From Colwellia sp. (GTDB taxonomy: Bacteria > Pseudomonadota > Gammaproteobacteria > Enterobacterales > Alteromonadaceae): 64,000 nt of DNA. The stretch lies in NCBI GenBank assembly GCA_013215295.1, contig JABSOZ010000003.1, positions 248,001-312,000 of the forward strand, read 5' to 3'. The translations under genes were made by a program, and so were the position numbers. Positions 6,430 to 49,836 of the stretch are shown here, one piece after another. The notes beneath the pieces were generated by a model, which searched no databases, was not told the DNA's origin, and saw only the letters and a program-made list of their open reading frames with translations. Every line of letters starts with the position of its first letter. The stretch's first letter is position 1.

Positions 6430-7665
6430 ATGTCAAAAGTAAACGAAAGAAATCTTATTGTAGGTTTAGATATCGGAACATCGAAAATATCTGTTGCTGT
6501 GGGTGAAATCACGCTAGACAATAAATTAAGTATTGTTGGTGTTGGTAATCAACCTGCACGTGGCATGGATAAAGGCGGCGTTAACGATTTGAATTTAGTT
6601 ATTCAATCAATTCAACGTGCCATAAATGAAGCTGAGTTAATGGCTGATTGCCAAATAAGTTCAGTATACTTAGGCATTTCAGGTAAACATATCAGTTGTC
6701 AAAATGAAAACGGTATGGTGCCAATTAATGACAAAGAAGTTATACAAGAAGATGTTGATAACGTAATACACACTGCACGTTCTGTGCCTATTTCGGCTGA
6801 ACGTCGTATGTTGCACGTTCTTCCACAAGAATTCAGTATTGACTGTCAAGATGGCATAAAAAGCCCTATAGGTATGTCAGGTGTCCGTATGGAGGCTAAA
6901 GTTCATATCGTTACTTGTGCAAATGATATGGCAAAAAATATCGTTAAATGTGTTGAGCGCTGTGAAGTAAAAGCAGACCAACTTATTTTTTCAGCGTTAG
7001 CATCTAGTTATGCAACCTTAACAGATGATGAAAAAGAGCTCGGTATTTGTGTCGTTGATATGGGCGCAGGCACCATGGATATAGCCGTATTCGCTGGTGG
7101 TGCATTACGTCATACTGCCGTTATTCCTGTTGCAGGTAATCAGGTCACAAGTGATATCGCAAAAATATTTAGAACACCGTTAAGCCACGCTGAAGACATT
7201 AAAGTGCAGTACGCTTGTGCACTTCGTCAAATGGTAAGTATGGAAGAGAATATTGAAGTTCCTAGCGTTGGCGGACGTCCTGCTCGTTCGATGTCTCGTC
7301 ACACATTAGCTGAAGTTGTAGAACCTCGTTACCATGAACTTTTCGAGCTTATTCAAGATGAGTTACGTGAAGCAGGATTAGAAGATCAAATTGCCGCAGG
7401 TTATGTATTAACAGGTGGTACGGCGAAAATGGAAGGTGTTGTTGAATTCGCTGAAGAAGTTTTTCAAATGCCAGTGCGTGTAGCTAAACCAAAAGAGTCT
7501 ATTGGTTTAAAAGAATATGTTGATGATTCAACTTATTCAACCGTTGTCGGTTTATTACATTACGGTATGCAAGCAAGTGAACAACAAAGTCTAGAAAGTA
7601 AGAGAAGTGAAGGTATTGCTAGTATTACTTCAAGAATATTGGCTTGGTTTAAAGGTGAGTTTTAA
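6430..7665 (+). CDS. ftsA: Cell division protein FtsA
   Basis: FtsA is the actin-like ATPase that tethers FtsZ to the membrane. I placed the start at the ATG at 6430 (MSKVNERNLIVGLDIGTSKI), not at the in-frame ATG at 6391, which lies inside ftsQ and adds 13 residues not expected in the family. The 411-residue protein has the phosphate-1 loop GLDIGTSKISV, the 1C domain (about residues 84-165), CVVDMGAGTMDIAVF (phosphate 2) and the adenosine motif LTGGTAKMEG. The C-terminus ITSRILAWFKGEF is the amphipathic membrane-targeting helix. Confidence 0.97.
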   Translation: MSKVNERNLIVGLDIGTSKISVAVGEITLDNKLSIVGVGNQPARGMDKGGVNDLNLVIQSIQRAINEAELMADCQISSVYLGISGKHISCQNENGMVPINDKEVIQEDVDNVIHTARSVPISAERRMLHVLPQEFSIDCQDGIKSPIGMSGVRMEAKVHIVTCANDMAKNIVKCVERCEVKADQLIFSALASSYATLTDDEKELGICVVDMGAGTMDIAVFAGGALRHTAVIPVAGNQVTSDIAKIFRTPLSHAEDIKVQYACALRQMVSMEENIEVPSVGGRPARSMSRHTLAEVVEPRYHELFELIQDELREAGLEDQIAAGYVLTGGTAKMEGVVEFAEEVFQMPVRVAKPKESIGLKEYVDDSTYSTVVGLLHYGMQASEQQSLESKRSEGIASITSRILAWFKGEF

Positions 7666-10686: not shown

Positions 10687-11583
10687 ATGAGTTTAACACT
10701 ACTATATCGCGGAAAGAACGTTAGATTTTCAATGACACTAAATAAGTTGCATTGGTTGTCTGCGATTACATGTTTTGCGCTCATTTCAGGCTTTGTTATC
10801 CATTTACTTTTTTCTGCGGATGAAGTTCCACAATCAATGCCATTTGCATTGAATGCCCCTGTTATTGACGGGAAAAGTGAACTTAATGAACATCAATTAA
10901 CAGCATTAACCATGAAACTTGCCGAACTTCAAAGCCAAGTATTACGGTTGAATGCGTTGGGTGACCGTTTAGCCGATGAAGCATCCATTCCAGAAAATGA
11001 ATTCAATTTTCAACAGTTACCACCAGCTGGAGGCCCTATGTTACAGAGCCAAACCAGTCATAAAAAATCATTAGCAGAGATGTTAATTGAAATATCGATA
11101 TTAGAAGAAAGTTTACGACATGAAGAAAATCAACTCACTACGCTTGAATCTGTGACTTTAGGTCACCATATAGAAAGTACGAGTTATTTATCTGGTCGAC
11201 CAATATCAAAAGGTTGGCTTTCTTCATACTACGGTGTGCGCAAGGACCCTTTTAGTGGGAAGCCAGCAGTACATAAAGGCTTGGACTTCGCTGGTAAAGA
11301 AGATGCCGCTATAATAGCAACAGCTTCAGGACTAGTTACCTGGGCAAGTGACCGTTACGGTTATGGACAACTTATCGAGATTAATCATGGTAAAGGATTA
11401 AAAACTCGATATGGTCACAATAAAAAATTATTAGTTAAAATAGGGGAAGTCGTTAGTAAAGGACAAATTATTGCGCGTATGGGAAGCACAGGTCGCTCAA
11501 CAGGACCACATGTTCATTACGAAATTTTACGTAATAATGCACAAATAGATCCAATTAAGTTCGTATATAGAAAAGCAAAATAA
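10687..11583 (+). CDS. M23-family metallopeptidase (LytM domain), membrane anchored
   Basis: This is a 298-residue envelope protein likely to act on, or regulate hydrolases of, peptidoglycan in the periplasm. It has one N-terminal membrane helix (about residues 20-42), a coiled-coil segment with Leu/Glu heptads (about 64-85 and 120-155), and a C-terminal M23/LytM domain from about 175. Catalytic-type motifs are intact: HKGLDFAGKEDAAI, and GPHVHYEIL, with RYGHN between them, so zinc binding is plausible. It occupies the position between lpxC and secA held by secM in enterobacteria. Confidence 0.88.
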   Translation: MSLTLLYRGKNVRFSMTLNKLHWLSAITCFALISGFVIHLLFSADEVPQSMPFALNAPVIDGKSELNEHQLTALTMKLAELQSQVLRLNALGDRLADEASIPENEFNFQQLPPAGGPMLQSQTSHKKSLAEMLIEISILEESLRHEENQLTTLESVTLGHHIESTSYLSGRPISKGWLSSYYGVRKDPFSGKPAVHKGLDFAGKEDAAIIATASGLVTWASDRYGYGQLIEINHGKGLKTRYGHNKKLLVKIGEVVSKGQIIARMGSTGRSTGPHVHYEILRNNAQIDPIKFVYRKAK

Positions 11584-34194: not shown

Positions 34195-35643
34195 ATGAAA
34201 AAAACGAACAAAAAATCACACGGTATTCGTGTGCTTTTAAAACAAAAGTTCTCTGAGAACATGATGATTTCGATGGCGTTAGTCATGACCCTTTCATCAA
34301 ATAATATCGTGACAGCGAGTGAATTGAATAATTCTCCCTTAGGCTTTCATAAAGCGGTTAAACGTGCGCAAAAAAATGATCCGTGGTTAATGGGTAATAA
34401 GCATAAACAATCGGCAACTGAAGCTAGAAGCATTTATGCCAGTACTTTGGCTGATCCTAAAATAGCGATTGGTTTTGCCAATATTGCTAGCGATTCTTTT
34501 GAATTTAACCAAGAGCCGATGAGTCAATTTAAAATCGGCATTACACAAATGTTTCCCAGAGGAGACAGTCGAAACATTAAAAAGCGTCAGCTTAAAATTG
34601 AAAGTGAAGCTTTTCCATTTCAACGCCAAGACCGCCAAGCAAAAGTTGCAGTAACTGTTGGTACGTTGTGGCTAGATTTATATCGTATTCAGCAAAGTGT
34701 GGCGTTGATAGAAAAAAATCGCAGCTTGTTTGAACACCTCGTTGATATTACTCAAGCCAGTTATTCATCCTCGCAAGGAAACACTCGCCAACAAGATATT
34801 GTGCGTGCGCAATTAGAGGTGAGTCGCATCGAAGACAAGTTAGTACAACTTCGGCAAAAACAGGCACAATATCGTGGACAGTTAAGTGCATGGTTAGCGA
34901 CAGATGAAATCAATAATCGTGTTGGGTTTCAGGTTGATACCGTAGAAAATAAATTGCCTGACATTTCACTTCAGCAAGTAAAATCTGGTCATGCGTATAA
35001 CTCTCAACAGATTGATAGTCTGAATCTTTTATCGGCTGTTTTTGCGCAACATCCTGCTTTAATCGCTGTCGATAAAAAAATAAAATCTACCGCAGTGGCT
35101 ATTGAATTAGCGAAACAAAAATATCAACCCGAATGGGGCGTAACTGCCAGTTATGCGCTACGCGATAATGATCCATTAGGTAATGACCGTGCCGATTTAT
35201 TTTCATTGGGTGTTGTTTTTGAATTACCTTTGTTTACCACGAACCGTCAAGACCAAGAGGTCAATGCGACGATTTCACAAACCGAAGCGATAAAAACCGA
35301 TAAGCAATTGTTATTAAGAGAATTCTACTCTTCTTATGTCAGTAACCGTGGTCGTTTACAGCAATTACTAAAACGTAAAGCGCTGTTCGATGAAAAACTG
35401 ATGCCGCAATTTCGTCAACAGGCTGAAATAACACTCAATGCTTATACCCATGACAGTGGTGATTTTAGTGAAGTTGTACGTGCAAAAATTGACGAACTTA
35501 ACGCAGAGATTGATTATTTAGCGATTAATGTCGAGCAACAAAAAACACAGTTAACGATTAATTATTTATTGATGAAAGCTGTCATGAAATTCACAGGCTT
35601 TCAGCTAAAAAAACAACAAGTGGGACTTGATAATGAGTACTGA
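34195..35643 (+). CDS. TolC-family outer membrane factor of a heavy-metal RND pump (CusC-like)
   Basis: This 482-residue protein should form the outer-membrane exit duct of the tripartite pump. A long N-terminal region with a hydrophobic segment (about 22-42) acts as signal. The mature part has the duplicated OEP pattern of long amphipathic helices (about 95-215 and 290-465) and beta strands such as KIGITQMFPRGDSR and LFSLGVVFELPLF. There is no lipobox, unlike E. coli CusC. It overlaps the adaptor gene by 11 bases. Confidence 0.85.
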   Translation: MKKTNKKSHGIRVLLKQKFSENMMISMALVMTLSSNNIVTASELNNSPLGFHKAVKRAQKNDPWLMGNKHKQSATEARSIYASTLADPKIAIGFANIASDSFEFNQEPMSQFKIGITQMFPRGDSRNIKKRQLKIESEAFPFQRQDRQAKVAVTVGTLWLDLYRIQQSVALIEKNRSLFEHLVDITQASYSSSQGNTRQQDIVRAQLEVSRIEDKLVQLRQKQAQYRGQLSAWLATDEINNRVGFQVDTVENKLPDISLQQVKSGHAYNSQQIDSLNLLSAVFAQHPALIAVDKKIKSTAVAIELAKQKYQPEWGVTASYALRDNDPLGNDRADLFSLGVVFELPLFTTNRQDQEVNATISQTEAIKTDKQLLLREFYSSYVSNRGRLQQLLKRKALFDEKLMPQFRQQAEITLNAYTHDSGDFSEVVRAKIDELNAEIDYLAINVEQQKTQLTINYLLMKAVMKFTGFQLKKQQVGLDNEY

Positions 35644-37159
35644 AATAAAACTTAAAAAAACATTCCTCGTTTTACTTATTGCTGTCGCGGTAATTTTAGG
35701 GGGCATTGCTGGTCATTTTTTGGATAACCAAAGCCCAATGAATATGGCTAACGCTGATAATGAAAGTGAGAGCCTTCCTATGTATTGGGTTGCGCCTATG
35801 GATGCAAATTATCGACGTGACCAACCAGGTTTGTCTCCCATGGGCATGGATCTAGTGCCTGTTTATGCTGAAAGTAAAACGCTTGCAGTAGGCACGGTAA
35901 AAATCTCTCCAGCCGTTGAAAATAATATTGCCGTACGTACCGCAAAAGTAAAGTTTGGCATGCTCGAGAGTCAAATTAAAACCATTGGTTATGTTGGATA
36001 TGATCAAGGGAAACTTGTGCATATTCATCCACGTGTTGAAGGTTGGATAGAAGTACTTGCCGTGAAGTCTGTCGGTGACCCTGTGCAAAAAGGCCAAGTA
36101 ATTTATGAATTGTATTCTCCTGAGTTGGTCAATGCCCAAGAAGAATATATTTTAGCGTTATCACGAAAAAATGATCGTTTAATTATTGCGGCAGAAAACC
36201 GGTTAATGGCATTACATTTACCGAAATCAGCTATTACACAGTTAAAAGCAACGCGTCAGGTGGAACAAAACATTAAGTTTTATGCGCCGCAATCTGGCGT
36301 GGTTGAAAACTTGGCTATCCGAGAAGGCTTTTTTGTGAAACCAGGTGCGACATTATTTTCAATTGGAGATTTATCTGAGGTTTGGGTTGAAGCTGAAATA
36401 TTTGAACGTCAAGCCAGTTTTGTCAGTGAAGGAAACACAGTCACCATGACCCTTGATTATTTAGCGGGGAAAGTTTGGCATGGCAAGGTTGATTATATCT
36501 ATCCAACCCTTGATGCGAAAACGCGTACTATGCGTGTGCGTTTACGTTTTGATAACCCTAATTTAGCGTTAAAACCTAATATGTTTGCTCAAGTTATTAT
36601 TCAAGGTGATGTCACTAATAAGTCTTTGCTGGTTAATAAAGAAGCTGTTATCCGCACAGGTAATCAAGACCGAGTCGTACTGGCATTAGGTCAAGGAAAA
36701 TTCAAGTCAGTTGAAGTTAAGTTAGGTCGAAGTGATCAAAAATATTTTGAAATTATTGAAGGGCTTAACGACGAAGATAACATTGTCGTTTCGGCGCAAT
36801 TTTTATTAGATTCTGAATCCAGTAGAACTTCTGATTTTAAACGTATGTCAGTATATGAAGATTCACTTACCTACATGGACACCTCAGTAAATGTAAACGA
36901 CGAGATGAACATGGCAACAGAATCATTGCCCAGTGCGCGTGTTAAAGGTCGAATCAATAGCATTGATGTCGAAAATCGCTTATTGAACATCTCGCGCGAA
37001 GCGATAGAAAAGTGGCAACGACCAGCGGCAACAGTAGATTTTGCTTTAGACGCCAGTATTAACATTGATACATTAATGCCAGAGAGCGACATTGATTTTA
37101 CTTTTGACATTAATAACGGTGAATTTATTGTGACTCACCTTCACCATGAAGGAATGTAA
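35633..37159 (+). CDS. cusB: RND periplasmic adaptor with N-terminal metal-binding domain and CusF-like tail (CusB-like)
   Basis: This membrane-fusion protein links pump and duct and is expected to bind Cu(I)/Ag(I). The ATG at 35633 overlaps cusC (TTG at 35627 is an alternative). A signal anchor (about residues 9-26) is followed by a heavy-metal-binding motif MYWVAPMDANYRRDQP and SPMGMDLVPVY (about 45-77). The barrel-sandwich and beta-barrel domains span about 115-390. A C-terminal segment from about 440, VKGRINSIDVENRLLNISRE then a predicted beta barrel ending in HLHHEG, looks like a fused CusF metallochaperone domain. Confidence 0.88.
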   Translation: MSTEIKLKKTFLVLLIAVAVILGGIAGHFLDNQSPMNMANADNESESLPMYWVAPMDANYRRDQPGLSPMGMDLVPVYAESKTLAVGTVKISPAVENNIAVRTAKVKFGMLESQIKTIGYVGYDQGKLVHIHPRVEGWIEVLAVKSVGDPVQKGQVIYELYSPELVNAQEEYILALSRKNDRLIIAAENRLMALHLPKSAITQLKATRQVEQNIKFYAPQSGVVENLAIREGFFVKPGATLFSIGDLSEVWVEAEIFERQASFVSEGNTVTMTLDYLAGKVWHGKVDYIYPTLDAKTRTMRVRLRFDNPNLALKPNMFAQVIIQGDVTNKSLLVNKEAVIRTGNQDRVVLALGQGKFKSVEVKLGRSDQKYFEIIEGLNDEDNIVVSAQFLLDSESSRTSDFKRMSVYEDSLTYMDTSVNVNDEMNMATESLPSARVKGRINSIDVENRLLNISREAIEKWQRPAATVDFALDASINIDTLMPESDIDFTFDINNGEFIVTHLHHEGM

Positions 37160-37161
37160 TC

Positions 37162-40100
37162 ATGATTAAACGCATCATTCACTGGTCGGTATTCAACCGT
37201 TTTTTTGTCATGTTAGTCACAGGTTGTATCATAGGTTTGGGTATTTTTGCTTTGAAAAATACGCCTATCGATGCATTACCTGACTTATCTGACGTGCAAG
37301 TCATTATAAAAACCAGTTACCCAGGTCAGGCTCCACAGGTGGTGGAAGATCAAGTGACTTATCCTTTAACGACGGCGATGTTGTCAGTGCCCGGCGCGAA
37401 AACGGTACGTGGTTATTCCTTTTTTGGTGATTCTTATGTTTATGTGATTTTCGATGACGATACCGATCTTTATTGGGCGAGAAGTCGCGTTTTAGAATAC
37501 TTGTCGCAAGTTGCCCCTAATTTGCCAAGTAATGCGAAACCTCAATTAGGACCTGATGCTACAGGTGTTGGCTGGGTGTATTTATATGCGCTGATTGATA
37601 AAACAGGTAAACACGATATTAGCCAACTACGATCGCTGCAAGACTGGTTCTTAAAGTTTGAATTACAAACCGTTGAAGGTGTGTCTGAAGTCGCAGCTAT
37701 TGGCGGCATGGTCAAGCAATACCAAGTAACAGTGAATCCTGATAAATTACGTGCTTACGGCATACCGTTAAGTTTAATTCAAACGGCAATCAAAAAAGGT
37801 AATCAAGAAGTTGGTGCGTCTGTCATTGAAATGGCAGAAGCGGAGTATATGGTTACCACTTCAGGTTATATTCAAAATGTAGATGATTTAGCCGCTATTC
37901 CGCTGGGTTTAAATGACAAAGGCGTTGCGTTGCAATTGAAAGATGTTGCTGATATCAATTTAGGACCACAAATGCGCCGTGGTATTGCCGAACTTAACGG
38001 CGAAGGTGAAACTGTCGGCGGTGTTGTGATCATGCGTTTTGGAGAAAATGCGCAGAAAACAATTGAAGGGGTCAAAGAAAAATTAGCACAATTACAACAA
38101 GGTTTACCCGATGGGGTTGAAGTTGTTACCGTATACGATCGTTCAGGTTTGATAGAGCGGTCGATAGAAAATTTATGGTCAAAATTAGCAGAAGAATTGG
38201 CCATTGTTGCTCTTGTTTGTGTGGTTTTCTTGTTTCATGTGCGTTCGTCAATTGTCGCTGTTATTAGTTTACCTATTGGTATTTTGGTCTCATTTATCAT
38301 CATGCATTTTCAGGGGATTAACGCAAATATTATGTCGCTCGGGGGTATTGCGATTGCGATTGGTGCCATGTCGGACGGCGCAATAGTGATGATAGAAAAT
38401 ATGCATAAGCATATGGAGAAAACACCGTTAACCGACGAAAATCGTTGGGAAATTGTGGCTAAATCAGCCTCTGAAGTAGGGCCTGCATTATTTTTTAGCT
38501 TACTCATTATTACGGTAAGTTTTATGCCTGTGTTTATATTAGAAGCGCAAGAAGGTCGAATGTTTAGCCCGTTGGCCTATACCAAAACATACGCAATGGC
38601 AGCCTCAGCTGGCTTGGCTATCACCCTTATTCCTGTACTCATGGGGTATTTCATTCGGGGTAAAGTAGTTTCAGAAAGAAAAAACCCGGTAAATCGTGCA
38701 CTCATCGCTGTTTATTTGCCGGTGTTAAAAACGGTTTTACGTTTCCCTAAAAGTACCTTGATTGCGGCGTGTGCGATAACGTGGTTGGGTTTCACTCCTC
38801 TTGATAAAATAGGCAGTGAGTTCATTCCCCCTCTTGATGAAGGCGATTTGATGTATATGCCGATCACCTACCCGAGTATTTCAATTGGCAAAGCGCGAGA
38901 AATTCTTCAGCAAACAGACAAATTAATCCGTACCATACCAGAAGTAAAAACAGTTTTTGGTAAAGTAGGGCGTGCAGAAACAGCGACGGATCCTGCGCCG
39001 CTCACCATGATCGAAACCTTTATTCAATTCAAACCTAAAGACCAATGGCGTAAAGGCGTTACCAGTGAAAGTTTAAAGGCTGAATTAGACCAAGTGGTGA
39101 AACTGCCAGGATTAACTAATACTTGGGTTATGCCCATTAAAACCCGTATTGATATGCTGGCAACAGGTATTAAAACGCCTGTAGGTATAAAAATAGCCGG
39201 TAGTGATATTCATGTCATTCAATCGGTAGGTTTAGAGATAGAAAAAATTCTCGAGAACTTCAACGGCACGGCTTCAATATATTCAGAGCGCGTTGCCGGA
39301 GGCCGTTACATTAAGGTTGATATTAACCGAAACAAAGCGGCAAGATATGGATTAAATATTGCCGATGTTCAGCAAGTGGTTGCAACAGCCATCGGTGGTA
39401 TGAATGTTACGCAAACTGTAGAAGGCTTGGAACGTTATCCGGTTAATTTACGTTATTCACAAGATTATCGTGATTCGCCAGAACAGTTGAAATTATTACC
39501 TATTGTTACACCTAATGGCCAGCATATTTCATTAGCCGATGTCGCTAATATATATATTGAAGATGGCCCTCCGGGCATAAAAAGTGAAAATGCACGTATT
39601 AACGGCTGGGTATATATTGATATTGAAAATATAGATGTCGGCAGTTATGTTGAAAAAGCTAAAATTGAATTGGAAAAAAAGCTTAATTTACCAACGGGTT
39701 ATTCAATTGCGTGGGCAGGGCAATACGAATATATGGAGCGAGCTAAAGCGAAGCTTATTTTTGTATTACCGTTAACGCTGGCGATTATTATTATTTTGCT
39801 TTATTTAAATTTTAGAAATTTTACGGAAGTTCTTATCATTATGGGCACTTTACCTTTAGCGATGATTGGTGGTATTTGGTTACTGTATTTAGAAGGTTTC
39901 AATTTTTCTGTTGCCGTTGGTGTTGGCTTTATCGCATTGGCTGGTGTCGCTGTCGAAATTGGCGTTATCATGCTGGTTTATTTGAACCAAGCTTATAATG
40001 AAACGCTAGAGCAATATCAAACGTCTAAAAAAACCTTCTCTACTGACGCATTGATTGAGTCAATTATACAGGGAGCTGGCATGAGAGTTCGACCTGTAAT

Positions 40101-40281
40101 GATGACGGTGGCAACCGTTATTATTGGCTTATTACCCGTTTTATACGGTAAAGGTACGGGCTCAGAAGTGATGAGTAGAATTGCGGCGCCTATGGTTGGC
40201 GGTATGGTAAGCGCTACAGTGTTAACGCTACTGGTACTTCCTGTCGTGTACTTTCTGTGGCGTAAACAGCAGTTATCTTAA
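37162..40281 (+). CDS. cusA: CusA-type heavy-metal efflux RND pump
   Basis: This 1039-residue inner-membrane proton antiporter exports Cu(I)/Ag(I) from the periplasm or cytoplasm. It has the HME-RND start IIHWSVFNRFFVMLVTGCII and the family motif NTPIDALPDLSDVQVIIKT. Twelve membrane helices in two repeats of six are evident. Helix 4 carries GAMSDGAIVMIENMHKHME and the second half AGVAVEIGVIMLVYLNQA, both closest to the monovalent-metal (CusA) type. Methionines in the porter domain (VMPIKTRIDMLATG) fit Met-based Cu/Ag transport. It follows cusB by two bases. Confidence 0.93.
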   Translation: MIKRIIHWSVFNRFFVMLVTGCIIGLGIFALKNTPIDALPDLSDVQVIIKTSYPGQAPQVVEDQVTYPLTTAMLSVPGAKTVRGYSFFGDSYVYVIFDDDTDLYWARSRVLEYLSQVAPNLPSNAKPQLGPDATGVGWVYLYALIDKTGKHDISQLRSLQDWFLKFELQTVEGVSEVAAIGGMVKQYQVTVNPDKLRAYGIPLSLIQTAIKKGNQEVGASVIEMAEAEYMVTTSGYIQNVDDLAAIPLGLNDKGVALQLKDVADINLGPQMRRGIAELNGEGETVGGVVIMRFGENAQKTIEGVKEKLAQLQQGLPDGVEVVTVYDRSGLIERSIENLWSKLAEELAIVALVCVVFLFHVRSSIVAVISLPIGILVSFIIMHFQGINANIMSLGGIAIAIGAMSDGAIVMIENMHKHMEKTPLTDENRWEIVAKSASEVGPALFFSLLIITVSFMPVFILEAQEGRMFSPLAYTKTYAMAASAGLAITLIPVLMGYFIRGKVVSERKNPVNRALIAVYLPVLKTVLRFPKSTLIAACAITWLGFTPLDKIGSEFIPPLDEGDLMYMPITYPSISIGKAREILQQTDKLIRTIPEVKTVFGKVGRAETATDPAPLTMIETFIQFKPKDQWRKGVTSESLKAELDQVVKLPGLTNTWVMPIKTRIDMLATGIKTPVGIKIAGSDIHVIQSVGLEIEKILENFNGTASIYSERVAGGRYIKVDINRNKAARYGLNIADVQQVVATAIGGMNVTQTVEGLERYPVNLRYSQDYRDSPEQLKLLPIVTPNGQHISLADVANIYIEDGPPGIKSENARINGWVYIDIENIDVGSYVEKAKIELEKKLNLPTGYSIAWAGQYEYMERAKAKLIFVLPLTLAIIIILLYLNFRNFTEVLIIMGTLPLAMIGGIWLLYLEGFNFSVAVGVGFIALAGVAVEIGVIMLVYLNQAYNETLEQYQTSKKTFSTDALIESIIQGAGMRVRPVMMTVATVIIGLLPVLYGKGTGSEVMSRIAAPMVGGMVSATVLTLLVLPVVYFLWRKQQLS

Positions 40282-40615: not shown

Positions 40616-40843
40616 ATGAAGAAAATTGTTTTATACAGCATGAGTAACTGTCCGCATTGTGATACAGCGAAAGCGTACCTTGAAAAAAACAATATATCTT
40701 ACCGATTGTGTAATGTAAAAACGGCCGCGGGACAGAAAGAATTCCGCCGAGCAAATTTTAGATCGGTACCGGTAATAAAAATTGGAAATGAATACCTTCA
40801 AGGCTTTAAAGTCGCTGCTTTTACTAAACTCTATAATGACTAA
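40616..40843 (+). CDS. Glutaredoxin-like protein
   Basis: A 75-residue thioredoxin-fold protein with the dithiol active site CPHC at residues 12-15 (MSNCPHCDTAKAYLEKNNIS). The cis-proline motif is present as RSVPVIKIGNEYLQGF, as in NrdH/glutaredoxin proteins. It may reduce disulfides or glutathionylated substrates in the cytoplasm. It is 127 bases ahead of the TPR-GGDEF gene and the ovothiol genes, so a role in thiol redox metabolism linked to ovothiol is conceivable; that link is inference. Confidence 0.85.
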   Translation: MKKIVLYSMSNCPHCDTAKAYLEKNNISYRLCNVKTAAGQKEFRRANFRSVPVIKIGNEYLQGFKVAAFTKLYND

Positions 40844-40970: not shown

Positions 40971-42866
40971 ATGAAGTTTGATTTTTGTAGATTTTTTTCG
41001 TTTGTTGTTATTTTGTCTGTTTTAGTCTGTCCTCAGTCACAGGCAAACAATAGTGCGCAATCAGAAGTTGAGCAAGTCGATGTGTCTGTAAGACTATTGG
41101 ACATGGATGACGAAATACATCAACAACCCTTACGTTCATATCAACAACTATTAACCCTCGAAAATACTTTTATCGACATGCCTAAACTGCAGCAGCTTTG
41201 GTGGTTGTTACGTAAAGCTCAAGCAGAAAATCTCCTCTACTTCTATTCTAATTTTAATAAAACAGTTGCTCAAGCAGTAGCGCTTATAGATACCGATACG
41301 CCTGCAAAAATTAAAAGTAACCTTTATATTTTTCAAGGGCTGACCCTTCGACGTGATGCAGAGTATGCTAAGGCTGCGCTTATTTTTCGTAAGTCGATGA
41401 CTATCGCTAAAGCTGAAAAATTAACGTATCTTTTTATTATCGCCAAACAAGAGCTTGCTTATACCAAAAGTTTAACGGAACTGTTTGAGTTGTCATTAAA
41501 TGAAATGCAAGAAGCTTACTTAGAAGCCTATGCCTTAAAAGAAGACTTTCTCATTGCGATTATCAATGAAACATATGGTGCTATTTATGGTTATATGAAA
41601 GATTATGAGCAATCGATTGAGTATTATCAAAAAGCGTTGAATACCTATGAACGTTTAAATTATCCCGCCCATGTTTCAGAAGCTATTTATGGCATTGCTG
41701 CAACCTATCGTTATTGGCAAAAATATGAGTTGTCGATTCGATATTTTGAACTTTATCAAGAAAAATTAACTTTTACCCCTAACACCGATATTTCATTTTT
41801 TTCTGCCTATGGATTGGGCATGACACTCGCAGAAAAAGGCGATTGTTTAAAGGCCATAGATGTTATTAATCATGCATTAACGTTAAACGGATTAATTGAT
41901 TATAACGCTGAACTATACAAGCAACAGGTTCACTGTTTTATTATAATGGGTGAGTTAGACCAAGCTCAAACATCTTTGACGAAAGCAGAAAATATATTTA
42001 TCTCTCTGCCTGAATTGGTTGGAACTGAATGGCAACTTGAAGTGATAAAACTCGCAGCAGAGCTTGCACATGCAAGAAATAATGACCGTGTAGCTTTTCA
42101 ATTGTCTAGACAGTATTACGAAAAATACAATAAGTTACAGGTAGAAAACTCTAGTATACGGTTAACCAGTGCCCGTGCGGCTATGGAAAATGAGCGAAAA
42201 CACATTGAACAAGCGCTGACTCTGCAACGAGCAAAAGTTAATGCATTAGAAAAAGAGTCAATGAACCAACAAGAATTACAGAATATTTATTTATGGATCT
42301 TTATTCTCTGTAGCGGCGTAATTGTTATTACAGTAATAACGATTCAGCATATAAATAACAAGAAGATGTACGCAGTATCGATTAAAGACCCATTATCAAA
42401 TTTATTTAATCGACGCTATATTTTTGAGTATTTATCGGACTACCTCAAAGACACGTTAATAGAAAAAACGGAACTGTCCGTTATTTTACTAGATATTGAT
42501 GATTTTAAAGCAATCAATGACGAGTTTGGTCACCCTTTTGGTGATGTTGTTATTAAAAAAATAGCGGATATTTGTCATGAGGTTTTTCGTAATGAAGATG
42601 TTATAGGTCGTATTGGCGGGGAAGAGTTTTTATGTATTTTACCCCGTACCAACGAAAAACAATGCAAAGTCATTGCTGAGCGTCTTTTGAAAAAAATTAG
42701 TAAGCAAACTTATCTAAAAAAACCGGGGTTACAAATCACCGTAAGCATCGGTATTGCCACCTTTTCTGAAGTTAGCTCTTCGAGTGAAACGTTATATCTA
42801 CATGCTGATGCAGCCCTTTATCAAGCAAAGCGTAATGGTAAAAATAATGTGGTCATTTATCAATAG
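40971..42866 (+). CDS. Diguanylate cyclase with periplasmic TPR sensor domain
   Basis: This 631-residue protein should make c-di-GMP. It has a signal peptide (about 1-25), an all-helical TPR region outside the membrane (about 85-400, including ETYGAIYGYMKDYEQSIEYY), a coiled coil (about 405-435), a membrane helix (about 437-460) and a cytoplasmic GGDEF domain (about 468-630). The active site GGEEF is residues 549-553 and the product-inhibition I-site RNED is residues 540-543, exactly five residues ahead, so it looks catalytically competent and feedback-controlled. The next gene starts 17 bases downstream, implying co-transcription with the ovothiol genes. Confidence 0.92.
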   Translation: MKFDFCRFFSFVVILSVLVCPQSQANNSAQSEVEQVDVSVRLLDMDDEIHQQPLRSYQQLLTLENTFIDMPKLQQLWWLLRKAQAENLLYFYSNFNKTVAQAVALIDTDTPAKIKSNLYIFQGLTLRRDAEYAKAALIFRKSMTIAKAEKLTYLFIIAKQELAYTKSLTELFELSLNEMQEAYLEAYALKEDFLIAIINETYGAIYGYMKDYEQSIEYYQKALNTYERLNYPAHVSEAIYGIAATYRYWQKYELSIRYFELYQEKLTFTPNTDISFFSAYGLGMTLAEKGDCLKAIDVINHALTLNGLIDYNAELYKQQVHCFIIMGELDQAQTSLTKAENIFISLPELVGTEWQLEVIKLAAELAHARNNDRVAFQLSRQYYEKYNKLQVENSSIRLTSARAAMENERKHIEQALTLQRAKVNALEKESMNQQELQNIYLWIFILCSGVIVITVITIQHINNKKMYAVSIKDPLSNLFNRRYIFEYLSDYLKDTLIEKTELSVILLDIDDFKAINDEFGHPFGDVVIKKIADICHEVFRNEDVIGRIGGEEFLCILPRTNEKQCKVIAERLLKKISKQTYLKKPGLQITVSIGIATFSEVSSSSETLYLHADAALYQAKRNGKNNVVIYQ

Positions 42867-42883
42867 AAAATTTATTACCTTAT

Positions 42884-44035
42884 ATGAAAAATACAACCTC
42901 CTTATCTGCTCAAGCTATTATATTATTGCAAAATCATATAAAAAAACTTGGCTTTACCCCCGTAATTCACTTCGAATTAGAGGGCTGTTATCAACTTGAT
43001 GTGAGAATAAAAAAATTCTCATTGAATTACCCACGAATTAATCGTCAATTGGCCAATGCAGGCATCGACGGAGAACTTGTTCCAGAATATTGGCGGAATC
43101 AGTGGGAGTATGTTTCTCTATTTAATGGTCAGTCACCTTTAAAAGAAGCTGATAACTTAAGTCAAGCGTTGAAAATTTTGCCGCGCTTATTTGCAGAACA
43201 AGGTATTTATAAAACGTTAATTAAACCTGTTGTATGGGCGGGTGATAAAGGTAAATTAGCCAACGGCAGTGGTGATATATTTACCACGGAAACACGCGCT
43301 GTTCATATTCCTAATGCCGTGCAGATGAATATTAGCGCTATTGATGGTGAAGGTAATAACATTATAATCGATGGCGGTTTTGGTGAATATTTACAACAAT
43401 GTTTTCTAGATACTAGCTTAAATTGCAGCTTGATTTATTTACCGGAAGAAGAAGCCTTTGAACGTTTAGCGTTAAAAAGTAAGTATGGTTTGGCTGCTGA
43501 ATTGTGTTCTCCTATCGATATTTCCGGCGGGCATCAAGGCAGTATTGCCTTATATAAAGAAGTGGGTAAACATAATCAAGCCATGGGCGAAGAGCCGTTA
43601 CTGTACGACCACAATAATAACGTATTGGTGAGTCAGCAAAATTGGCAAAAAACCGCTCGGATCGAACATAGACTTGGTGCATCAAGCACACAATATAATG
43701 CTTATTTCAATATTATTTATGCATTATTGAACTTAATTGATGCACTTGAAGTATATAAAGGTGATAACTGTCGTAGATTGCTTCGTAAAGACGTTCATCA
43801 GCAAGACTTGCCATTGTCTTTGTATGATAATAATTTGACAACGGGTGTAGGTGCAATATCATTATTTGAAAATGATAACTGGTTCAGTGAAAGTTTAAAT
43901 AAGCTGTCCGGTCAATCTTTAGGTTGTGAACAAATGATCAGTCAGTCGAATTTAGGTGACAAAATAAAGCAAATGATTTTAGCGCCATACCAACAGAAAC
44001 TTATTCTCAAACAATCATTCATTCGTTATAAATAG
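42884..44035 (+). CDS. Divergent glutamine-synthetase-like protein in the ovothiol operon
   Basis: I do not recognise a named family, but the 383-residue sequence follows the glutamine synthetase catalytic pattern: paired acids FELEGC (residues 30-35), QWE (73-75), an ADN helix then KPV (114-116) and QMNIS (147-151), and at 259-266 RIEHRLGA followed by a helix, matching the GS RIEHRL signature. It lacks the N-terminal beta-grasp half of full-length GS. If it is a ligase, it could join an amine to a gamma-carboxyl of glutamate or of an ovothiol intermediate. It lies 17 bases after the GGDEF gene and 15 bases before ovoA. Confidence 0.5.
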   Translation: MKNTTSLSAQAIILLQNHIKKLGFTPVIHFELEGCYQLDVRIKKFSLNYPRINRQLANAGIDGELVPEYWRNQWEYVSLFNGQSPLKEADNLSQALKILPRLFAEQGIYKTLIKPVVWAGDKGKLANGSGDIFTTETRAVHIPNAVQMNISAIDGEGNNIIIDGGFGEYLQQCFLDTSLNCSLIYLPEEEAFERLALKSKYGLAAELCSPIDISGGHQGSIALYKEVGKHNQAMGEEPLLYDHNNNVLVSQQNWQKTARIEHRLGASSTQYNAYFNIIYALLNLIDALEVYKGDNCRRLLRKDVHQQDLPLSLYDNNLTTGVGAISLFENDNWFSESLNKLSGQSLGCEQMISQSNLGDKIKQMILAPYQQKLILKQSFIRYK

Positions 44036-44050
44036 CTAAAAATATAAAAT

Positions 44051-46183
44051 ATGAATTTTATCAATAATCAAAATATTACCCCACAGCTTAATGGTTTATC
44101 AGTGGATGATAAACGGGCAGAGCTGAAAAATTACTTTCATAATACTTGGACAACTTACGAATCGTTATTTGCGTTAATTAATAACGATGAAGCATATTAT
44201 TTGCGACCAGAATCCTTACGTCATCCACTTATCTTTTATTTTGGCCATACGGCTACATTCTTCATTAATAAACTGATTCTGGGTAAATATATTAACAAAC
44301 GGGTAAATACAAAATTAGAGGCGGTTTGCGCGGTTGGCGTTGATGAAATGAGTTGGGATGATCTCAACAGTGAACATTACGACTGGCCCAATGTTGATGA
44401 AGTGAGAGAATATCGAGAGCTGGTTTTTGGCTTAGTCAATCGGCTTATCGATACCATGGAATTAACCTTGCCTATCAAACAAGACACATTAGCTTGGGTG
44501 ATATTAATGGGCTGTGAACATGAGCGTATACATCTGGAAACGTCGTCAGTGATCATGCGTATGTTGCCGTTAGCTCATTTAACGAACCAAACAGAAGAAC
44601 ATGGCCGATGGAGAGACTGTACTCAATTTTCTGCTGCGCCAACAAATGAATTATTACCCGTTGCTGAAAACTCAATCGTGTTAGGTAAAAAATCAAGTGA
44701 TGAAACCTATGGTTGGGATAATGAGTATGGCCAATTATCCGTTACTGTAGCGCCATTCTCAGCGGCCAAGTATTTAGTTTCTAATCAAGAGTTTTTAGCT
44801 TTCATTCAAGCTGATGGTTATAAAAATCCACATTACTGGACTGAAGAAGGTCAACAATGGCTGAATTTTACCAAAACTGAAATGCCACGTTTTTGGCAGA
44901 AAAATGGTGATGAGTACCTACAACGTAATTTACTTAACGAAATACTTTTACCACTGAACTGGCCAGCAGAAGTTAACTACTTAGAAGCGAAGGCTTTTTG
45001 TCAGTGGAAAAGCGAAAAAACCAATAAACACATAGCAATGCCAACAGAAGCACAGTGGCATTGCTTACGAGAAAATGTCACTGAAGACAAACCTGATTAC
45101 CTTAACACGTCGGCAAATATCAACTTAGCGCATTATGCTTCTTCATGTCCGGTTGACGAGTTTTCTGCGGGGCAATTCTATGATGTTATTGGTAATGTTT
45201 GGCAATGGAATGAGTCCGCAATAGATGGTTATGAGGGCTTTAAAGTTCACCCTCTATACGACGACTTTTCTACGCCAACCTTTGATGGCCAGCATAATTT
45301 GATTAAAGGTGGTTCATGGATATCAACGGGTAATGAAACCATTGCTTCGTCTCGTTATGCTTTTCGCCGCCATTTTACTCAACATGCAGGTTTTCGTTAT
45401 GTAGAAAACCTTGATGGGAAAATTCCATTAACACCGGTAAATTGTTATGAAACGGATGTTGAAGTCTGCGAGCAACTGGAAAGCCATTATGGTGATAAAC
45501 ATTTAAATATTGATAATTATTCACAACAAGTCAGTGGCTTATTGCTTGATAAAGTTAAAGAATATGGTGTTAGTACCAGCAAGTTATTGAATGTAGGCTG
45601 TAGTGTAGGTCGAACGGCTTTTGAGTTGTCTGAGTATTTTCAACATATTGATGCAGTTGATTTTTCTGCACGTTACATACAATACGGTGTTCAACTTCAA
45701 CAACAAAAAACACTCCGTTACACCGCTGTTATTTCAGGTGACATACAGAGTTTTCACGAAGTATCCCTTAAAAATTTATCATTGAGTGAATCGGTTGACC
45801 ATATTGTTTTCAGTCAGGGTGATGCGAGTAATTTAAAAACTATGTTTAATGGCTATGACGCTATTTTAGTTGAGCATGCGTTAGAAAAAAGTTACCAGCC
45901 TAAACAGTTGTTAGCTACATTATCGCAAAGGCTCAACAAGCAAGGATACCTTTTCGTATTAACGGATCATCAATACTCAACGCAACATACTGAAAAAGAA
46001 AATTGGTTAGGTGGTCTTAAAGTAAACGGTGAAAATCTCAGTGGTTTCGATGGTTTAAGCGAAAAGTTACAAGATGACTTTTGCTTTTTAGCCGCGCATC
46101 CATTATCGCGAGTGATTAAAAAAAATCATTGCACCTTCACTGTAACAACAACAGAAATGTCGATCTGGCAACGGAAAACGTAG
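44051..46183 (+). CDS. ovoA: OvoA, 5-histidylcysteine sulfoxide synthase with methyltransferase domain
   Basis: OvoA is the iron enzyme that couples cysteine and histidine through O2 to 5-histidylcysteine sulfoxide, the first step of ovothiol A synthesis, and its C-terminal domain later N-methylates 5-thiohistidine. The 710 residues fit: a DinB_2 domain (about 25-180) with iron ligands His66 and the H-x3-H-x-E motif His157-His161-Glu163 (HERIHLE), an FGE-sulfatase domain (about 215-450; GNVWQWNES and IKGGSWIS) and a SAM methyltransferase domain (about 490-710; LLNVGCSVGRTAFEL). All motifs are intact. Confidence 0.93.
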   Translation: MNFINNQNITPQLNGLSVDDKRAELKNYFHNTWTTYESLFALINNDEAYYLRPESLRHPLIFYFGHTATFFINKLILGKYINKRVNTKLEAVCAVGVDEMSWDDLNSEHYDWPNVDEVREYRELVFGLVNRLIDTMELTLPIKQDTLAWVILMGCEHERIHLETSSVIMRMLPLAHLTNQTEEHGRWRDCTQFSAAPTNELLPVAENSIVLGKKSSDETYGWDNEYGQLSVTVAPFSAAKYLVSNQEFLAFIQADGYKNPHYWTEEGQQWLNFTKTEMPRFWQKNGDEYLQRNLLNEILLPLNWPAEVNYLEAKAFCQWKSEKTNKHIAMPTEAQWHCLRENVTEDKPDYLNTSANINLAHYASSCPVDEFSAGQFYDVIGNVWQWNESAIDGYEGFKVHPLYDDFSTPTFDGQHNLIKGGSWISTGNETIASSRYAFRRHFTQHAGFRYVENLDGKIPLTPVNCYETDVEVCEQLESHYGDKHLNIDNYSQQVSGLLLDKVKEYGVSTSKLLNVGCSVGRTAFELSEYFQHIDAVDFSARYIQYGVQLQQQKTLRYTAVISGDIQSFHEVSLKNLSLSESVDHIVFSQGDASNLKTMFNGYDAILVEHALEKSYQPKQLLATLSQRLNKQGYLFVLTDHQYSTQHTEKENWLGGLKVNGENLSGFDGLSEKLQDDFCFLAAHPLSRVIKKNHCTFTVTTTEMSIWQRKT

Positions 46184-46189
46184 CAAACA

Positions 46190-47392
46190 ATGAGAAAAAC
46201 TTTACCTGCACATATTGCTTTTGGTCAGCAACTTGCGGCAAATGAAAACGTGACTATTCATTATAATTTGAGTAACTCTTGTGGGCAAAGTTTGTCAGTG
46301 GCGCAGTTATGCGCTATAGGAGGCGTTAGCCTTGATGATTTACTGGCTGAGCAAGAGTTATCATATTCATCAATAAGTGGCAGTTATCGGTTACGTTCAT
46401 TGATTGCTCGTTTTCATCAAGACTATAATAACCATGAGTATAAGTTGTCTGCGGATAATGTATTAACATTTTGTGGTGCTCAAGAAGCACTGTCAGCCAT
46501 TTATCAAAGCGTATTTTTTAATGATGACCTTGACAATAAAAAGGATGGCGATAAACATTGTGAAATGGAAATTGTTGTTGTCACGCCATGTTATCCCACT
46601 TTGGTGAAAATGGCAGAGCAATTGGGTATAAAGGTAAGGTGTTTAGCGGTTAACTTTGAAGAAAATTGGCAAACTAATGAACAAGCGCTTTTAGCTTTAG
46701 TCAACGAAAACACCCGATTAATTGTACTTAATTCACCTCATAATCCGAGTGGAAGTATCATAAATAGTGAGTTTTCAAATCGAATACTTACCATAGCGAA
46801 AAAATTTAATTGTTACCTTTTATCTGATGACGTATCCCAAGCAAGCAACTATAACAATATTGCGTTAGCACATGCCTATTTAGATTATGATCGTACTATT
46901 GTGGTATCCGTATTATCAAAAAGTTTTGGTTTGGGAGGTGTGCGCATTGGTTGGGCAGTGACTAAGAATAAGTCGCTGTTAAAAAAACTATTAGCGATAA
47001 AAGCACAAGCATCAATTTGCACCTCAGTTGTTGATGAAAAGCTGGCAGAGCTTGCATTAGAAAATCATGAGAAAATCATCAACAGTAATAACGCTATTAT
47101 CAAAAGTAACATAACGATATTTCAGCAATTCATCGACACCCATCATCAGTATTTTAGTTGGCATGCTCCTCAAGCAGGCTTACTCACTTTAGTTAAATGT
47201 CATACTCAAATACCCATGCTTAAATGGGCTGAGCAACTTGCCGAACAAACAGGGATATTTATTTATCCCGCCTGTTTGTTTGGTCTTGAAGGTTCATATT
47301 TTCGTTTAGGATTAGGAGGAAAGAATCTTTCTGTGATAGTAGAATTACTGCAAACATTTGTTAAAAACCATCAACAGTTGAATGATAAATAA
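46190..47392 (+). CDS. ovoB: OvoB-like PLP-dependent sulfoxide lyase (aminotransferase fold)
   Basis: OvoB cleaves the C-S bond of 5-histidylcysteine sulfoxide to give 5-thiohistidine. This 400-residue fold-type I enzyme has the PLP lysine Lys244 in VLSKSFGLGGVRIGW, the Asn and Pro of NSPHNPSG (181-188) and the cofactor-binding Asp213/Asp214. Fold-type I enzymes of this class cannot be told from aminotransferases by sequence alone; the six-base distance to ovoA supports the OvoB role. Confidence 0.82.
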   Translation: MRKTLPAHIAFGQQLAANENVTIHYNLSNSCGQSLSVAQLCAIGGVSLDDLLAEQELSYSSISGSYRLRSLIARFHQDYNNHEYKLSADNVLTFCGAQEALSAIYQSVFFNDDLDNKKDGDKHCEMEIVVVTPCYPTLVKMAEQLGIKVRCLAVNFEENWQTNEQALLALVNENTRLIVLNSPHNPSGSIINSEFSNRILTIAKKFNCYLLSDDVSQASNYNNIALAHAYLDYDRTIVVSVLSKSFGLGGVRIGWAVTKNKSLLKKLLAIKAQASICTSVVDEKLAELALENHEKIINSNNAIIKSNITIFQQFIDTHHQYFSWHAPQAGLLTLVKCHTQIPMLKWAEQLAEQTGIFIYPACLFGLEGSYFRLGLGGKNLSVIVELLQTFVKNHQQLNDK

Positions 47393-47529: not shown

Positions 47530-49836
47530 ATGTTTGACCAAAACAATAATAATATCAACCTAAAGACAGAAGACAATGCGACGCCTAGTGTTTCACTCTT
47601 CAAAAAATGCCTTATTACTACCTTAACGCTGCTAAGTGTTAATTTTTCACTTCAAGCGGCAGAATCCATAAAGCAAAGTTATGCATTAACTCACTTTGAA
47701 GACAAAATAGTCGTTGATGGTGTTATGGATGAACCTGTGTGGAAAAGTGCCACCAAAATGTTACTTAAGTATGAAAATAATCCAGGAGAAGGTATTCCAG
47801 CAACAGCAAAAACTGAAATATTTTTCTATGAAAATGGTGAAACCTTTAACGTTGCTATTATTGCCTATGATCCAGAACCTGAACTTATTCGCGCCTCATT
47901 ACGTGACCGAGATGCGTTATGGAATGATGATAATGTTGGTATTATTATCGACACTTTTAACGATCAACGAAGTGCTTATGAATTCTTTGTAAATCCTCTT
48001 GGTGCTCAAGCCGATATGCGTATGGATGATACAAATGGCTGGCATGAAGATGCATCTTGGGATGCTATTTGGAATAGTGCAGGGAAAATAACTGATATTG
48101 GCTACGTCGTTGAAATGAGTATTCCTTTTACTGCATTACGTTTTCCTCAAGTTGATGGGAAATTAACTTGGAATGTTGCGGGCTGGAGAAATTATCCTCG
48201 CGATGTTCGACGTCAGATGGCAACGTACAAGCGTGATCGTAATATTAAATGTAACTTATGCCAGTTTGATCAAATGGTTGGCTTTAATAGCATCAAACCC
48301 AGTAATAATTTTCAGTTAACACCAACACTCACGGTATCTCGCCAAGATAAAAAATCAGATGTCCCTGGAGCTTGGGAAAGTGGTGATACAGAAACAGACC
48401 CTAGTTTGGATATTCGTTGGGGCATTACCCAAGATATGGTATTAAACGCGACCATCAATCCAGATTTTTCACAAGTAGAAGCAGATGCTGGCCAGCTTGA
48501 TGTTAATAGTACTGATTCATTATTTTTTCCTGAAAAGCGGCCATTCTTTTTAGATGGCGCCTCGTATTTTGATACCAGTAACTTCAACTTTGTTCATACC
48601 CGTAATATTGCTGAGCCTGATGTTGGTGTGAAATTAACAGGGAAAACAAATGAACATAGTTATGGCTTGATGGTAGCAAATGACAGTAATACACGCTTTT
48701 TAATGCCGGGAAATTCAGGCTCAGATATTGCTGTATTAAATGATGAGTCAGAAGTTGTTGTGGCTCGCTATAAAATGGATGTTGGTGAGCATAACGATGT
48801 GGGTGTGTTGGTTACAAACAGAAAAGCAACCGATTATAAAAATACCTTGGTTTCTATCGATGGAAATTATTGGATCAGTCAAACAGACAGTTTACGTTAT
48901 CAAATAGCCCGTTCAGAATCAGACAATCCAGAAAAAGTGACAACAGAATTTGGTGTAGCAAAGGAGCAACAAGGTAATGCCTATAGCTTGGCATATTCAC
49001 ATCAAACACGCGATTATAGTCTTAAAGCAATGTACACGAATGTTGAAGAAGACTTTCGTGCTGATTTAGGTTTTCAGTCGCGAGCAAATTATGAAAAAGT
49101 TGTCTTAGGTGGTAATCAAACGTGGTATGGCACCGAAGAAGATACGCTCACTCAATGGGGATATTTTGGTGATTGGGATAAAACCTACGACCAAGACGGC
49201 AAAATGCTTGAGCAAGAGTATGAATTATTTGGCGAAATTGAAGGACCAATGCAAATGTACAGTAATTTTGGTTTTACTCATAGAGAGCGATACTTCGACG
49301 GTGAATACTTTTATGAAAATCAAGCGAGAAGTTATTTACAGTTTACGCCAACTTCTGGATTGAAGTTACAGTTCTTTACTCGGTTGGGTAAACAAATTGA
49401 TTACGCGAATACCCGCTTAGGTGACGTATTTAATTTTGAAACAACCGTCACTTGGGATGCCAATAAGCATATTAATATAGATTTCACCCACAACTACAGC
49501 CAACTAGATATTAAAGGTAAACGTTTATTTACCGCTAATCAGTATGACGTTAGGTTTGGTTATCAGTTTAATATGCGCAGCATTTTGAAATTTGTTGTTC
49601 AATATACCGATATAGAAAGAGATGCTGATATGTATAACTATGATGATATTGATGATCGTCCTCATCAAATCAGTAAACATTTTTCAACACAGCTTATTTA
49701 TTCTTATAAAATTAATCCACAAACACTGTTTTTTGTTGGTTATTCTGATGGCGGTTATCAAGACGACGATTTAGACTCACTTGAACGAAACAAGAGAACG
49801 ATTTTTACCAAGTTTAGTTACGCTTGGCAGTTATAA
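47530..49836 (+). CDS. CBM9-like / DUF5916 outer-membrane protein
   Basis: A 768-residue exported protein: signal peptide (hydrophobic part about residues 27-43, cleaved after SLQAA), an N-terminal carbohydrate-binding family 9-like domain (about 50-230; DGVMDEPVWKSA and NDDNVGIIIDTFND) and a DUF5916 region that looks like an outer-membrane beta-barrel, ending in a C-terminal aromatic strand KFSYAWQL. RPFFLDGASYF is a conserved DUF5916 motif. Function unknown; a role in binding or taking up a glycan or peptide is possible. It has its own upstream region of 137 bases and need not belong to the ovo operon. Confidence 0.82.
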   Translation: MFDQNNNNINLKTEDNATPSVSLFKKCLITTLTLLSVNFSLQAAESIKQSYALTHFEDKIVVDGVMDEPVWKSATKMLLKYENNPGEGIPATAKTEIFFYENGETFNVAIIAYDPEPELIRASLRDRDALWNDDNVGIIIDTFNDQRSAYEFFVNPLGAQADMRMDDTNGWHEDASWDAIWNSAGKITDIGYVVEMSIPFTALRFPQVDGKLTWNVAGWRNYPRDVRRQMATYKRDRNIKCNLCQFDQMVGFNSIKPSNNFQLTPTLTVSRQDKKSDVPGAWESGDTETDPSLDIRWGITQDMVLNATINPDFSQVEADAGQLDVNSTDSLFFPEKRPFFLDGASYFDTSNFNFVHTRNIAEPDVGVKLTGKTNEHSYGLMVANDSNTRFLMPGNSGSDIAVLNDESEVVVARYKMDVGEHNDVGVLVTNRKATDYKNTLVSIDGNYWISQTDSLRYQIARSESDNPEKVTTEFGVAKEQQGNAYSLAYSHQTRDYSLKAMYTNVEEDFRADLGFQSRANYEKVVLGGNQTWYGTEEDTLTQWGYFGDWDKTYDQDGKMLEQEYELFGEIEGPMQMYSNFGFTHRERYFDGEYFYENQARSYLQFTPTSGLKLQFFTRLGKQIDYANTRLGDVFNFETTVTWDANKHINIDFTHNYSQLDIKGKRLFTANQYDVRFGYQFNMRSILKFVVQYTDIERDADMYNYDDIDDRPHQISKHFSTQLIYSYKINPQTLFFVGYSDGGYQDDDLDSLERNKRTIFTKFSYAWQL

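Follow-up and report, generated by a model that had tools for sequence, protein, structure and literature searches.

What role does a shortened relative of glutamine synthetase (GS) play directly in front of ovoA, a gene of ovothiol synthesis? The question is posed by a stretch of 64,000 nucleotides from Colwellia sp. (assembly GCA_013215295.1, contig JABSOZ010000003.1, positions 248,001 to 312,000 of the forward strand; 'the window' refers below to this whole stretch), in which a forward-strand frame at 42884..44035, intact from ATG to TAG, encodes a protein of 383 amino acids. This protein, termed 'the ligase' here, is rated as belonging to a GS-superfamily ligase family that is absent from the libraries searched and is tied to ovothiol synthesis. 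As to what it does, the preferred but tentative answer, with slightly less than an even chance of being right, is that it is an ATP-dependent carboxylate-amine (putatively glutamate-amine) ligase, built on a GS catalytic domain, that conjugates the 5-thiohistidine or ovothiol arising from the adjacent OvoA.

Frame, fold and metal site of the ligase

The initial annotation of this locus had reported an intact frame of 383 residues with a set of GS-type motifs, all of which were found again (FELEGC at residues 30-35, QWE at 73-75, ADN at 89-91, KPV at 114-116, QMNIS at 147-151 and RIEHRLGA at 259-266); the matching reverse-strand frame across 42884-44035 is full of stops. A scan of genome_contigs, in which 84,980 species are each represented by a single genome, was made with this one query protein, a procedure that recovers close relatives only, and yielded 36 relatives of 49-84% identity. 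Cultivated relatives with a ligase are Colwellia hornerae (84% identical) and C. demingiae. In nine pairs the ratio of nonsynonymous to synonymous substitution rates (dN/dS) falls within 0.05-0.15 for the ligase, values that indicate purifying selection on it; for ovoA it falls within 0.03-0.14. Because of these relatives and ratios, the frame is not a chance open reading frame.

The fold is visible in the predicted structure, which on a Foldseek search of the PDB displays the GS catalytic domain (the best 50 rows are all GS-type). No GCL (glutamate-cysteine ligase) appears among these 50 rows, a listing too short to speak against a GCL-like fold. The GS match on which the initial annotation had staked its reading was thus found by structure search and not by the sequence libraries: Pfam returned no family for the window protein at E up to 1, PF00120 is not among the eight Pfam families matched by any of 37 family members at E up to 10, and the Pfam families of GCL (PF03074, PF04262 and PF04107) are likewise absent from the matches of the window protein and of the 37 members. 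Bacterial proteins of PF03074, wanted for a closer comparison with GCL, did not turn up in 150 genomes, a result without weight because the control genomes gave no signal either. A viral library gave weak matches only, several of them named amidoligase (best E 0.0012). Weak matches to MAAL_C in 6 of the 37 members (best E 0.00086), and matches to beta-methylaspartase (E 0.2), were dropped because the whole-length fold is that of GS.

In the predicted structure the N-terminal beta-grasp domain, which in GS completes the active site, is absent, and this distinguishes the ligase from GlnA (type I GS), GmaS (9qur and 7cqn), 4hpp and PuuA. The best structural row places model residue 1 on GS residue 104, bearing out the remark of the initial annotation that the usual N-terminal half is missing; the alignment of other rows to GS begins mostly near residue 100 or near 65-75. 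Between the frame and the GGDEF gene upstream of it there are only 17 bp. GCL presumably also lacks the beta-grasp domain.

The metal ligands of GS, which we take to be E129, E131, E212, E220, H269 and E357, were sought in an orthologue alignment of 42 distinct ligase proteins. Five of the six positions are kept as Glu in all 42: E31 and E33, matching Glu129 and Glu131 (codons E31-L-E33, 42974..42982, forward strand, as are all codons given here); E68 and E75, matching Glu212 and Glu220 (43085..43108); and E261, matching Glu357, with R263 on Arg359, also invariant (codons E261-H-R263, 43664..43672). At the His269 position stands Q147 (43322..43324), which is Gln in 42/42. E68 and E75 were assigned by motif, read by eye, and the other positions by weak hhalign stretches to GlnA. 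The alignment called for by the initial annotation, which had left the catalytic status open, therefore retains most of the metal site and loses its histidine. The site argues for catalysis, and the ligase is probably an active enzyme.

Relative to GlnA and GS-like ligases the protein has Gln for His269, with some 22 additional residues inserted ahead of it (by eye), and it has no PF00120 match. In yeast GCL (3ig5) Gln268 occupies the His269 position, and the second acidic pair is spaced by seven residues (96-103), as are E68 and E75, the spacing in GlnA being eight. A letter pattern E-x-E, E-x6-E, Gln, E-x-R is thus common to the ligase and yeast GCL, and the more general GCL pattern (E-x-E, acidic-x6-E, Gln or His, E-x-R) fits E31/E33, E68/E75, Q147 and E261/R263. 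Escherichia coli GshA differs from the ligase at two places of the pattern (Asp60 and His150) and has no HMMER match to the ligase family profile. In both yeast GCL and GshA the residues of the pattern are presumably metal ligands.

Pairing with ovoA and history of the two genes

The gene directly downstream (44051..46183, forward strand) is identified with certainty as ovoA by its matches above cut-off to TIGR04344 (5-histidylcysteine sulfoxide synthase, E 4.3e-194) and TIGR04345 (the C-terminal N-methyltransferase domain, E 1.8e-73); PDB entry 8khq is matched at E 6.1e-216. In all 36 loci of the genome_contigs scan ovoA directly follows the ligase. Thirty-four of these loci carry the name of Colwelliaceae genera or of the family itself, one is named Endozoicomonas and one Alteromonadaceae; the OvoA of the Endozoicomonas locus is identical to one from a genome placed in the window's family.

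A sample of the order, comprising 394 whole genomes including the window's own, contains OvoA in 69 genomes and the ligase in nine, all nine among the 69 and none among the 325 genomes without ovoA. Each of the nine ligase genes adjoins ovoA on the same strand. The chance of all nine falling within ovoA genomes would be 1e-7 if genomes were independent, a figure that serves only as a guide because they are related. Together the two sets provide 45 ligase loci (36 plus nine, with three strains in both, hence the 42 distinct proteins). The ligase comes first, with ovoA directly downstream on the same strand, in 45 of 45, so that the co-occurrence in other genomes on which the initial annotation had made its proposal depend is complete. 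Of 40 loci measured, 39 have the two genes between -4 and 77 bp apart, the exception being L032, where ovoA lies in two frames.

Farther afield, the ligase profile matched two of 369 genomes in a sample of the class (the window's own and one of its family), and the ligase was unmatched in 72,556 plasmid records. OvoA was found in 18 of 319 genomes of a phylum sample. Seventy-four ovoA loci (30, 31 longer ones and 13, several of them from the same genome, with the 30 and the 13 extending no farther than about 1.5 kb beyond the match) were scanned with ligase and GS profiles; the ligase profile matched only in three known bearers (G000, G006 and G134). An ordinary GS gene some genes after ovoA, in one of the 74 loci (L138), was taken as coincidence. 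Two genomes from a single genus carry, just upstream of the intact ligase gene, remains of a second copy that is partial and decayed (L120, about 10873-11066, reverse strand; L121, about 6697-7091, forward strand).

The history of the pairing was followed on a tree of 76 OvoA rows (73 distinct; a quick search without bootstrap), 45 with the ligase and 31 without, the latter being those fetched out of 60 genomes in the order sample that have OvoA but no ligase. A single branch divides the ligase bearers from the rest: the ligase label changes once on the tree (SH-like approximate likelihood ratio support 96), as against 24.2 changes in shuffles. Other genera of the Colwelliaceae have a different OvoA lineage, without the ligase. 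Within the genomes searched, the ligase is thus paired exclusively with one OvoA lineage, a distribution that fits a single gain; no loss was seen in the OvoA-tree comparison. By eye, the principal groups with good support in the OvoA tree recur in the ligase tree, with several deep forks weak and some long rows such as L032 and L033 placed differently in the two.

OvoA itself changes little across this boundary. Only three of 710 columns separate the 45 sequences with the ligase from 30 without it, and one of these is substantial (Met171, as against Gln in 27 of the 30). The idea that the ligase is there because OvoA uses a changed substrate was considered and rejected, three columns being too few. 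The methyltransferase region is at least 98% filled at all 45 ligase loci.

Neighboring genes of the cluster

The ligase and ovoA belong to a one-strand row of five genes, separated by gaps of 127, 17, 15 and 6 bp; the spacings of 17 bp and 15 bp on either side of the ligase were re-measured and agree with the initial annotation. The row starts with a glutaredoxin-like protein of 75 amino acids with a CPHC motif (40616..40843, forward strand; PF00462, E 2.7e-12), which is a possible redox partner of the thiol product. It is followed by a protein with TPR and GGDEF regions and an intact GGEEF motif (40971..42866, forward strand; PF00990, E 1.5e-42), a putative diguanylate cyclase that may tie ovothiol metabolism to cyclic di-GMP. 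Behind ovoA, in the place of ovoB, lies a pyridoxal phosphate (PLP)-dependent protein of aminotransferase fold (46190..47392, forward strand; PF00155, E 7.2e-34), for which no curated NCBIfam cut-off was reached among the 25 matches listed; its position 6 bp after ovoA suggests the role of OvoB, a C-S lyase. A promoter scan of the cluster (37, where shuffled sequence averaged 29.2) and a terminator scan (8 against 4.5) were not used as support.

Homologues of the window's genes were counted within the fetched stretches of the 45 ligase loci and 31 ligase-free ovoA loci. The ovoB-like gene is present at 24 of the ligase loci, the GGDEF gene at 31 and the glutaredoxin-like gene at 28, and none of the three occurs at any of the ligase-free loci. 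The ligase is a more constant neighbor of ovoA than any of them.

Two other arrangements around ovoA were observed. Genes for a P-II protein and an ammonium transporter follow ovoA at ten ligase loci, all of one Colwellia clade without a detected ovoB-like gene; the pair lies at 11604-13233 in L012, the one locus on which family tests were carried out, and starts there about 250 bp after ovoA. At nine ligase-free ovoA loci (L125, L127-L131, L143, L146 and L148), some of them from Colwelliaceae with the different OvoA lineage, the gene next to ovoA encodes a different PLP-type protein (cluster 18; so named by eye).

Beyond the cluster, a protein of 768 amino acids with CBM9-like and DUF5916 regions is encoded at 47530-49836, its group comprising eight members from six distinct genomes, and two frames upstream (35627-40281) resemble, by eye, a CusB/CusA-type heavy-metal RND efflux pair.

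A proposed reaction and its alternatives

GS-fold ligases form an amide from a carboxylate and an amine by way of an acyl phosphate, and in the known cases the carboxylate is mostly the gamma-carboxylate of glutamate. The ligase is not required for making either glutamine or gamma-glutamylcysteine, because the window genome encodes two regular PF00120 proteins and all nine bearer genomes searched encode an ordinary GshA. Since OvoA is the only constant partner of the ligase, the amine is most likely that of 5-thiohistidine or ovothiol A. The scarcity of separating OvoA columns suggests that the first step of the pathway is probably unchanged and that the ligase acts after it, and the filled methyltransferase region at every ligase locus suggests that it adds to methylation rather than competing with it.

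In the proposed sequence of events OvoA would couple histidine and cysteine, a C-S lyase (OvoB or another) would release 5-thiohistidine, and the methyltransferase domain of OvoA would convert this to ovothiol A. The ligase would phosphorylate the gamma-carboxylate of glutamate and join the activated glutamate to the alpha-amine of 5-thiohistidine or ovothiol A, to yield a gamma-glutamyl thiol-histidine. Observation supports the fold, the missing domain, the invariant metal-ligand positions, the purifying selection and the pairing with one OvoA lineage, while catalysis, glutamate as donor and a thiol-histidine as acceptor are inferred from them. Of the two ideas raised by the initial annotation, gamma-glutamylation of a thiol-histidine is accordingly judged the most likely and recycling of by-products of the pathway the less likely. 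That these bacteria use a dedicated thiol-histidine ligase to make gamma-glutamyl-ovothiol or gamma-glutamyl-5-thiohistidine as a previously undescribed, glutathione-like low-molecular-weight thiol, with the glutaredoxin-like protein of the cluster as its redox partner, is possible but on balance doubtful.

A number of observations weigh against glutamate conjugation by a GS-type enzyme. Searches of Pfam, NCBIfam, PHROGs and the PDB sequences yielded no usable match, whether with the protein or with its profile, and the Foldseek TM-scores among the rows listed are 0.50-0.59 by query length. Comparison with 32 GS sequences by hhalign gave three weak collinear stretches, of which the best (residues 256-289 on GlnA 353-384) reaches E 0.0015 and a probability of 17% over 32 columns, and the others (9-33 on GlnA 106-132 and 148-174 on GlnA 271-296) E 0.06 and 0.12; global hhalign gave no useful alignment. 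The HMMER link to GS has a best E of 2.2e-4 in a set of 42 sequences and 0.4 for the window protein itself. With the beta-grasp domain the ammonium-site Asp50 of GS is absent too, and the position that is Gln in every ligase is His in all 32 GS sequences. GS residues Arg321, Arg339 and Arg344, which presumably bind glutamate and phosphate, are not placeable in the ligase: R194, K198 and K229 are invariant candidates, on which weak alignments and spacing disagree (for Arg321, the spacing from P187 suggests R194, and the weak alignment points to about residue 202). Residues 120-139, just before Q147, have a predicted local distance difference test (pLDDT) score under 50 in the model. Finally, the pairing with ovoA represents one historical event and not many, the near lack of lineage-specific columns offers, from the OvoA side, no sign that the product has changed, and no gene for using a glutamylated product is constantly near the ligase loci.

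Some of these points can be read in favor of other functions. The glutamate pocket is not fully traceable, and in three of the nine whole bearer genomes no homologue of the window's ovoB was found at E 1e-20, yet the ligase and OvoA are kept; both would suit a ligase that acts on the OvoA sulfoxide, or that uses another acyl donor or amine, to form a thiol-histidine conjugate other than gamma-glutamyl-ovothiol. Such an outcome is unlikely, though by no means negligible, as other C-S lyases may stand in for OvoB and the solved GS-fold ligases that rank highest in the structure search are presumably glutamate users. The altered His269 position, together with the adjoining GGDEF and glutaredoxin genes, might instead point to a GS-fold protein that has no catalytic activity and acts as a regulator of OvoA, binding either OvoA or a metabolite. 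This is improbable: the five metal-ligand Glu residues and the Arg359 equivalent, invariant in 42/42, would be needless in a pseudo-enzyme, and yeast GCL, which we take to be active with a Gln in that role, has the same residue there. It is quite improbable that the gene merely travels with one ovoA lineage while serving another pathway; the single historical event would allow it, but the ligase has been kept at 45 of 45 loci while the ovoB-like, GGDEF and glutaredoxin genes vary more in their presence, and its distance from ovoA is short at nearly every locus measured.

The traits shared with yeast GCL (no beta-grasp domain, seven-residue Glu-Glu spacing and Gln for the GS His, with the GCL roles and domains presumed) lend a slim chance to a glutamate-cysteine ligase that supplies OvoA with gamma-glutamyl-cysteine, in the way that EgtA serves EgtB when ergothioneine is made. 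Against such a supply stand the GshA present in each bearer genome, the nearly unchanged OvoA of the ligase lineage and, according to one report, the strong preference of OvoA enzymes tested elsewhere for cysteine over gamma-glutamylcysteine (PMC9103826). Very improbable is a GS-like scavenger that fixes the ammonia from the C-S lyase: the fold and the P-II and ammonium-transporter genes of the ten Colwellia loci would be in keeping with it, but the missing domain is the one that carries the ammonium-site Asp50, the window genome encodes its two regular PF00120 proteins, and the P-II/transporter pair was seen at none of the remaining 35 ligase loci and, starting about 250 bp after ovoA in L012, possibly forms an operon of its own.

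The preferred reading, glutamylation of a thiol-histidine, would place the ligase beside a small number of accessory enzymes. A 2025 survey of ovoA neighborhoods describes an acetyltransferase, 5THNAT (PMC12631010), which was likewise found by its position beside ovoA and modifies the amine of 5-thiohistidine, as the ligase would; it differs in being of GNAT type, using acetyl-CoA and occurring in Bacteroidota. That text describes 5THNAT as a competitor of methylation, and the methyltransferase domain is missing from some of the OvoA proteins paired with it (PMC12631010), whereas the region is filled in all 45 OvoA sequences of the ligase lineage. The same source names OvoA as the only other enzyme known to recognize 5-thiohistidine (PMC12631010); beyond that statement, the PDB also names OvoM and OvsM (9bxl and 9bxh), stand-alone N-methyltransferases of 5-thiohistidine and 5-selenohistidine. 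Like the ligase these are separately encoded thiol-histidine enzymes, but they are related to the C-terminal domain of OvoA and are methyltransferases rather than ligases. A link between ovothiol and a GS-like ligase was absent from the titles and abstract openings of the literature searched, a search that most subscription papers lie outside.

The finding of further enzymes that recognize 5-thiohistidine has been called, in the 2025 survey, a critical prerequisite to understanding the roles of 5-thiohistidines (PMC12631010). The gene described here, kept with one OvoA lineage of Colwellia and related marine bacteria at every locus seen and belonging to a GS-fold family without an entry in the sequence libraries searched (Pfam, NCBIfam, PHROGs and PDB sequences), is a strong candidate for such an enzyme. 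If its product is a gamma-glutamyl thiol-histidine, these bacteria would possess a new small thiol parallel to glutathione.
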